From the NCBI GenBank assembly GCA_030426545.1, contig JAUHYL010000008.1, positions 1 to 64,000 on the forward strand: DNA of 64,000 bases. The letters are read 5' to 3'. The notes below the pieces were generated by a model. The model ran no database searches. It had not been told where the DNA came from and was given only the letters and a program-made list of their open reading frames with translations. Source of the DNA: Gammaproteobacteria bacterium. Lineage in GTDB: Bacteria; Pseudomonadota; Gammaproteobacteria; Pseudomonadales; Halieaceae. Shown piece after piece: positions 4,485 to 4,763 of this stretch. A program made the translations under genes and the position numbers. Each line of letters begins with the position of its first letter. Positions within the stretch are counted from its first letter, which is position 1.

Positions 4485-4582
4485 ATGCTGCGGAGTCGTT
4501 ACGAAACACGCCGTGAATACATCCATGTAGGCTCGAGCGCGACATCCATGTCGCGCACGGTTTCGTAACGACTCCGCAGCAT
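4485..4582. repeat. Hairpin repeat element 1 (23-bp arms, 52-nt core)
   Basis: Arms at 4485-4507 and 4560-4582 form a perfect 23-bp inverted repeat (ATGCTGCGGAGTCGTTACGA plus AAC). The 52-nt core, read on the minus strand, begins CGTGCGCGACATGGATGTCG and ends TTCACGGCGT. The core begins and ends like that of element 2, but the arms differ. It sits 55 nt upstream of the pheS start codon. No convincing ORF runs through it. Confidence 0.85.
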
Positions 4583-4650
4583 CCTCCGCTCCATAGGTTC
4601 TAGCTGCAGGTGCAATGACTCCTTCAGTAAGAACCACAGATAGCTCAGAG

Positions 4651-4763
4651 CATGCCAGAGCGTGTTGTCAGACCGTGCGCGACATGGATGTCGGGGGCGG
4701 CCATCCGTCGCCCGAGACCCCATGGACGATTTCACGGCGGGTCTGACAACACGCTCTGGTATG
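4651..4763. repeat. Hairpin repeat element 2 (23-bp arms, 67-nt core)
   Basis: Arms at 4651-4673 and 4741-4763 pair over 22 of 23 positions (CCAGAGCGTGTTGTCAGAC and its complement). The core on the plus strand begins CGTGCGCGACATGGATGTCG, identical over 20 nt to the core of element 1 on the other strand, and ends TTCACGGCGG. The two elements therefore have opposite orientation, equal arm length, related loops and different stems. Confidence 0.85.

Follow-up and report, generated by a model that had tools for sequence, protein, structure and literature searches.

What kind of element keeps its loop and changes its stem? The question is raised by the pheS leader in a 64,000-nt stretch of DNA from a member of the Halieaceae (the window, by which the whole stretch is meant). 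Here, a preliminary description made from the letters alone had reported two oppositely oriented hairpins with differing arms around a shared core. Both hairpins were found, element 1 on the minus strand and element 2 on the plus strand, each with paired arms, and what had been stated on the two ends of the core and on the differing arms holds for both. The two elements point away from each other, between the rplT terminator and pheS. In the feature list below, R1 is the covariance model built here from 46 sequences (element 1 included, element 2 not) and RF01731 is the Rfam model of TwoAYGGAY.

3416–4429, minus strand: pheS (ORF list; PheS N-terminus)
4478–4589, minus strand: element 1, whole, a TwoAYGGAY/YPAL-type hairpin, sense to pheS (R1 100.7 bits; RF01731 38 bits, E = 1.3e-4)
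4560–4589, minus strand: element 1 outer stem, 5' arm, private sequence, 93% complementary to 4478–4507 over 30 nt
4478–4507, minus strand: element 1 outer stem, 3' arm, complementary to 4560–4589
4508–4559, minus strand: element 1 conserved core (from fold, alignment and covariation)
4534–4559, minus strand: element 1 core hairpin 1, loop AUGGAU at 4544–4549
4510–4532, minus strand: element 1 core hairpin 2, loop AUGGAU at 4521–4526
4590–4642, no strand: spacer of 53 nt separating the divergent twins, without a sigma-70-like promoter
4649–4764, plus strand: element 2, whole, the divergent partner, antisense to pheS (R1 58.8 bits, E = 1.4e-12; RF01731 17.7 bits)
4651–4674, plus strand: element 2, 5' arm, complementary to 4740–4763
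4740–4763, plus strand: element 2, 3' arm, complementary to 4651–4674
4675–4739, plus strand: element 2 core, loops AUGGAU (4684–4689) and AUGGAC (4722–4727)
4695–4713, plus strand: extra small hairpin within the element 2 core, missing from the orthologues in a three-genus alignment
4807–4835, minus strand: rplT operon terminator (intrinsic), lying upstream of the twin
4898–5257, minus strand: rplT (ORF list)

Both cores start with CGTGCGCGACATGGATGTCG and end with CATGGA-N4-TTCACGGCG. The 17-nt core start, with three or fewer mismatches, occurs three times in the window against 0.4 expected by chance, and the RNA-fold z-scores of elements 1 and 2 are -9.7 and -9.4. Fold and alignment revealed two AYGGAY-loop hairpins on an outer stem in both elements, with an extra hairpin in element 2. 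The arms of element 2 are 24 nt long, and their pairing extends imperfectly to 43 nt; element 2 is a degenerate copy. Element 1 ends 48 nt from the start codon of pheS (4429).

A wide search with the core, as the preliminary description had proposed, was carried out by scanning the two-part core against 84,980 species genomes. The same core was recovered in 110 other contigs, which belong to Stenotrophomonas and other Lysobacteraceae, Halieaceae, Marinobacterium, Reinekea, Saccharospirillum, Cellvibrio and others, and of 274 gammaproteobacteria sampled, 45 gave hits to the covariance model. R1 copies per genome in the window's genus range from 0 in most congeners to at least 84, with 9 in the window's own genome, all such counts being lower bounds. 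Searches of plasmids, phages and E. coli genomes with the type-A core gave no matches, and plasmid relatives surfaced only when the YPAL sequence served as the query. Many contigs of Stenotrophomonas sp. HITSZ_GD (L040, L055, L075 and others) break off inside elements, which indicates that the repeat breaks short-read assemblies.

The characterization of the elements as a conserved loop with a variable stem proved correct and general across Gammaproteobacteria. In 82 non-redundant copies, 73 different 18-mer arms were counted. It had also been suggested to check whether the arms vary and still pair. In these 82 copies, the arms are paired in approximately 90% of cases at each position as far as 23 nt, and the pairing is lost when arms are swapped between copies, falling to about 32–60% beyond the inner six positions. 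Even sister copies in one genome may carry unrelated arms while their cores are nearly identical.

Such compensation was then evident in the fold as a whole. The proposed fold has 36 pairs, and in 31 of them both sides change. Paired cells amount to 92.5%, compared with 63.6% after shuffling and at most 43% with the partners slid. The mismatches that do occur are strongly biased: among 222 distinct arm pairs, G-T (G·U) mismatches on the core strand number 100 and A-C mismatches only seven. The bias was retained when one copy per arm cluster was used (n = 73; 57 versus 5, p = 3e-12), and it is seen alike in each of the two data sources (60:5 and 40:2). A function in double-stranded DNA alone would be expected to give equal numbers of G-T and A-C, so the bias points to a function of the single strand. 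A single-stranded DNA hairpin could in principle be the source of the one-strand G-T tolerance; the tests (covariation, G·U bias and loops) point to transcribed RNA. It is very likely that the core strand is under RNA-level selection, and the stem sequence varies because it is apparently selected as RNA structure, with compensatory change and with G-U tolerated on one strand only. Among the changes between paralogues, 940 were double-compensated and 188 one-sided; as these comparisons are non-independent, a mechanism of hairpin-templated correction is not claimed.

The elements could be connected to three catalogue entries. Element 1 falls below the gathering threshold of TwoAYGGAY (43 bits), as does element 2, and two other copies from the window's genome pass it with 44.9 and 43.2 bits. 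The outer stem and the two hairpins with AYGGAY loops are shared with that family; however, Rfam has single RNAs and lacks most of the present copies. The literature examined did not describe TwoAYGGAY as forming divergent twins, as having private arms that compensate each other or as being scattered in dozens of copies. The next entry is the Yersinia palindromic sequence YPAL/RU-2, of which the RU-2 sequence is printed in PMC2759123. On the same strand, element 1 is identical to it in 30 of 31 core bases (E = 1e-12), with a local score of 45 against 16 or less in 500 shuffles, and element 2 has a short match only (E = 0.015). Like the present elements, YPAL is dispersed, intergenic and RNA-folding, although it is described as a uniform Yersinia repeat of about 168 bp, with which the Halieaceae copies have only the core and the fold in common. 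The last entry is Ysr224 (RF02770). An E. coli plasmid (L333) carries a relative that is 75% identical to RU-2; this relative matches R1 on the same strand (E = 1.3e-7), and its opposite strand is called Ysr224 by Rfam (72.4 bits, gathering 70). The Ysr224 model also matches the opposite strand of element 1, at 35.6 bits and thus below threshold. Ysr224 is filed as a separate Yersinia sRNA, whereas here it is the other strand that is under selection. Taken together, the Rfam, R1 and YPAL matches indicate that three catalogue names cover one superfamily, which ties an orphan RNA family to a mobile DNA repeat and to a family of antisense sRNAs; no paper uniting TwoAYGGAY, YPAL and Ysr224 was found in the open-access literature. 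The window elements are almost certainly relatives of TwoAYGGAY/YPAL; the superfamily is a known one, and their arrangement is new.

The conserved loops suggest a ligand. A high-affinity site for CsrA/RsmE is an ANGGAX hexaloop directly atop a stem, in which N and X are free (PMC4005645), and the CsrA consensus has been given as A/UCANGGANGU/A (PMC6849547). TwoAYGGAY was already proposed to bind CsrA from motif matches (PMC4333381). Both the window loops and the family loops conform to the ANGGAX-on-stem pattern. The unconstrained second loops read CA-N-GGA-N-G in 98 of 106 copies, variable only at N and X, and the remaining eight read A-GGA-X, missing only N. Conservation therefore follows the published CsrA/RsmE motif, and this free-loop test and the strand bias provide new support for the earlier proposal. 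CsrA was found in the window's genome and in every one of the 29 relatives' genomes of good quality, which is weak evidence since the protein is nearly universal in these relatives. As judged from the loops, CsrA is a fairly probable ligand of the element RNA. CsrB, RsmY and RsmZ, which bind CsrA/RsmA, likewise present several GGA hairpin loops, but these are single regulated sRNA genes, whereas the present elements are dispersed repeats with two loops each and no detectable promoters. A Stenotrophomonas subtype (L040 302–377, L064 700–774 and similar), whose second loop is ACAGGAUGU, without N, forms divergent pairs with copies of the main subtype.

The twin arrangement of the window is the rule. 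Among 49 non-redundant pairs of neighbours no more than 600 bp apart, 48 were divergent (minus, then plus), with a centre spacing of 153–494 bp. Some apparently single Stenotrophomonas copies have a partner of another subtype. The sole non-divergent neighbours (L243; G016:C43:258000-259700) are two tandem copies in the same orientation, whose arms differ in an internal block and both pair. The elements are mostly intergenic in either orientation, seven being within called genes, and their orientation to flanking genes, counted with our own rough gene caller, is even (26/23/21/16). Across the family, no fixed sense relation to neighbour genes was found, nor are the elements tied to gene 3' ends. 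Sigma-70 promoters were not enriched upstream of the elements over downstream or shuffled DNA, and none was found in the pheS leader of the window.

YPAL is reported to move and to duplicate its target site (PMC2229807). Direct evidence of mobility comes from one genome, G285. The hairpin lies there inside a MITE with the TIR CAGCAATTCCCA, and target duplications of 8–11 bp flank 10 of 10 copies; these are probably 9 bp plus chance extension. The MITE family (TIR CAGCAATTCCCAATTT) has 315 TIR-like sites in this one genome, and the ten copies examined (L313–L322) carry the hairpin. Single elements showed nine target duplications against 2.8 expected, clear in G285 only, and none was found around 47 twins. 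In another genome, G103 (L323–L332), the hairpin occurs in both orientations inside one inverted-repeat element (GCCAGCAGCCTGTCGGACTT) that differs from the G285 MITE, as if it had been inverted via its own arms. The RAYT (Y1) transposase PF01797 is absent from G000, G016 and G020, which include the window's genome and the richest congener. REP/REPIN sequences are also intergenic, palindromic and arranged in inverted pairs; they differ in being 20–40 bp long with conserved ends, and without RAYT in either of those genomes this identity was rejected.

The best explanation, and a reasonably probable one as far as the sequences allow, is that the two hairpins form a divergent pair of dispersed repeats of the TwoAYGGAY/YPAL type, whose spread takes place at the DNA level and whose selection acts at the RNA level, with putative docking of CsrA. 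The core strand specifies a Y-shaped fold of a long outer stem and two hairpins. On read-through from a neighbouring transcript, the sense twin would fold and its two loops may dock a CsrA dimer, which would alter how stable the host transcript is or how it is translated; many copies might draw CsrA off other targets. Because of the inverted arrangement, transcription from either flank would yield an RNA with one functional copy. The outer stem would need pairing only, and its letters could drift fast via compensatory changes. In the pheS leader, the sense copy is element 1, and an effect of it on pheS expression, as the preliminary description had raised, is possible. Points against this explanation are the degenerate state of element 2, the lack of promoter enrichment and the absence of the elements from most congeners, by which the function is not essential.

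A purely selfish miniature transposon, with a hairpin that serves only DNA mobility through recognition by a transposase or at a fork, would account for the patchy copy number in one genus, for the MITE with its duplications in one genome and for the reported mobility of YPAL. It is nevertheless improbable, because mobility in the MITE genome depends on TIRs outside the hairpin, RAYT/Y1 is missing from the window's genome and the richest one, the 47 twins lack duplications, and the one-strand G-U bias, the covariation and the CsrA-type loops, conserved at the contact positions, point to a single-strand function. The structure-based mobile unit suggested initially is partly right: the mobility agrees with the very patchy copy numbers, the MITE and the kinship to YPAL. 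The recombination cassette suggested beside it found no support. A folded site of the attC type resembles the elements only in its overall appearance, with a long folded arm; attC has conserved ends and a variable centre, the opposite of what is seen here, no cargo genes lie between the twins, and no integrase was found at the loci examined. This candidate was rejected as extremely improbable.

Two further rivals place the function in the RNA. An mRNA-stabilizing 3' hairpin, as reported for YPAL, would act as an exonuclease roadblock or terminator in which the loops are unimportant. The very stable folds agree with this, but the stems in the window are not followed by a T-tract, the elements are not bound to gene 3' ends and the loop conservation is left unexplained, which makes it rather unlikely, if less so than the selfish transposon. 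Specific cis-regulation of the pheS (and obgE) leaders, for instance as an attenuator, draws on the proximity of the sense element 1 to the start codon and on recurrence: the same twin precedes pheS in three genera, namely that of the window, Parahaliea (P. mediterranea, G019, recognized through shared 200-mers) and Haliea (one genome), and obgE leaders with elements occur in Reinekea, Parahaliea and one congener (L048, L074, L241). In Parahaliea mediterranea, the bases flanking the stem of element 2 are conserved, and the arms differ and still pair. However, the twin is missing from most pheS leaders of the genus, which measure 122–290 nt as opposed to 468 nt here and are too diverged to define a junction. 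The random gene orientation across the family argues against cis-regulation as well, and the original authors of TwoAYGGAY scored the family as probably not cis-regulatory. Such a regulator is therefore quite unlikely, and confidence in a specific role in pheS control is low.

The orphan RNA is now seen to be strand-specific, hugely dispersed and arranged as divergent twins, and the CsrA-binding proposal has been sharpened into one that can be assayed. A broader reading, which we offer tentatively and with more doubt than conviction, is that YPAL, TwoAYGGAY and the antisense of Ysr224 form one mobile superfamily carrying a CsrA-docking RNA, whose twins might dock in either direction of transcription and whose bursts to dozens of copies might rewire a genome's CsrA network or titrate it. 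If true, mobile repeats would spread binding sites of a global regulator around genomes.

Other rplT-pheS leaders contain repeats of a different kind. The leader in L170 (G018) has, inserted directly after the rplT stop codon, an inverted repeat some 260 bp long (TGTTCCAACCACCTGATAACTTAGG ... CCTAAGTTATCAGGTGGTTGGAG), and that in L158 (G014) is filled with short tandem repeats, GACAGGCGTCGATTT-like at first and then CCCGCAGGGGCTGGGTGAGCAGAACGGCCAGTT.
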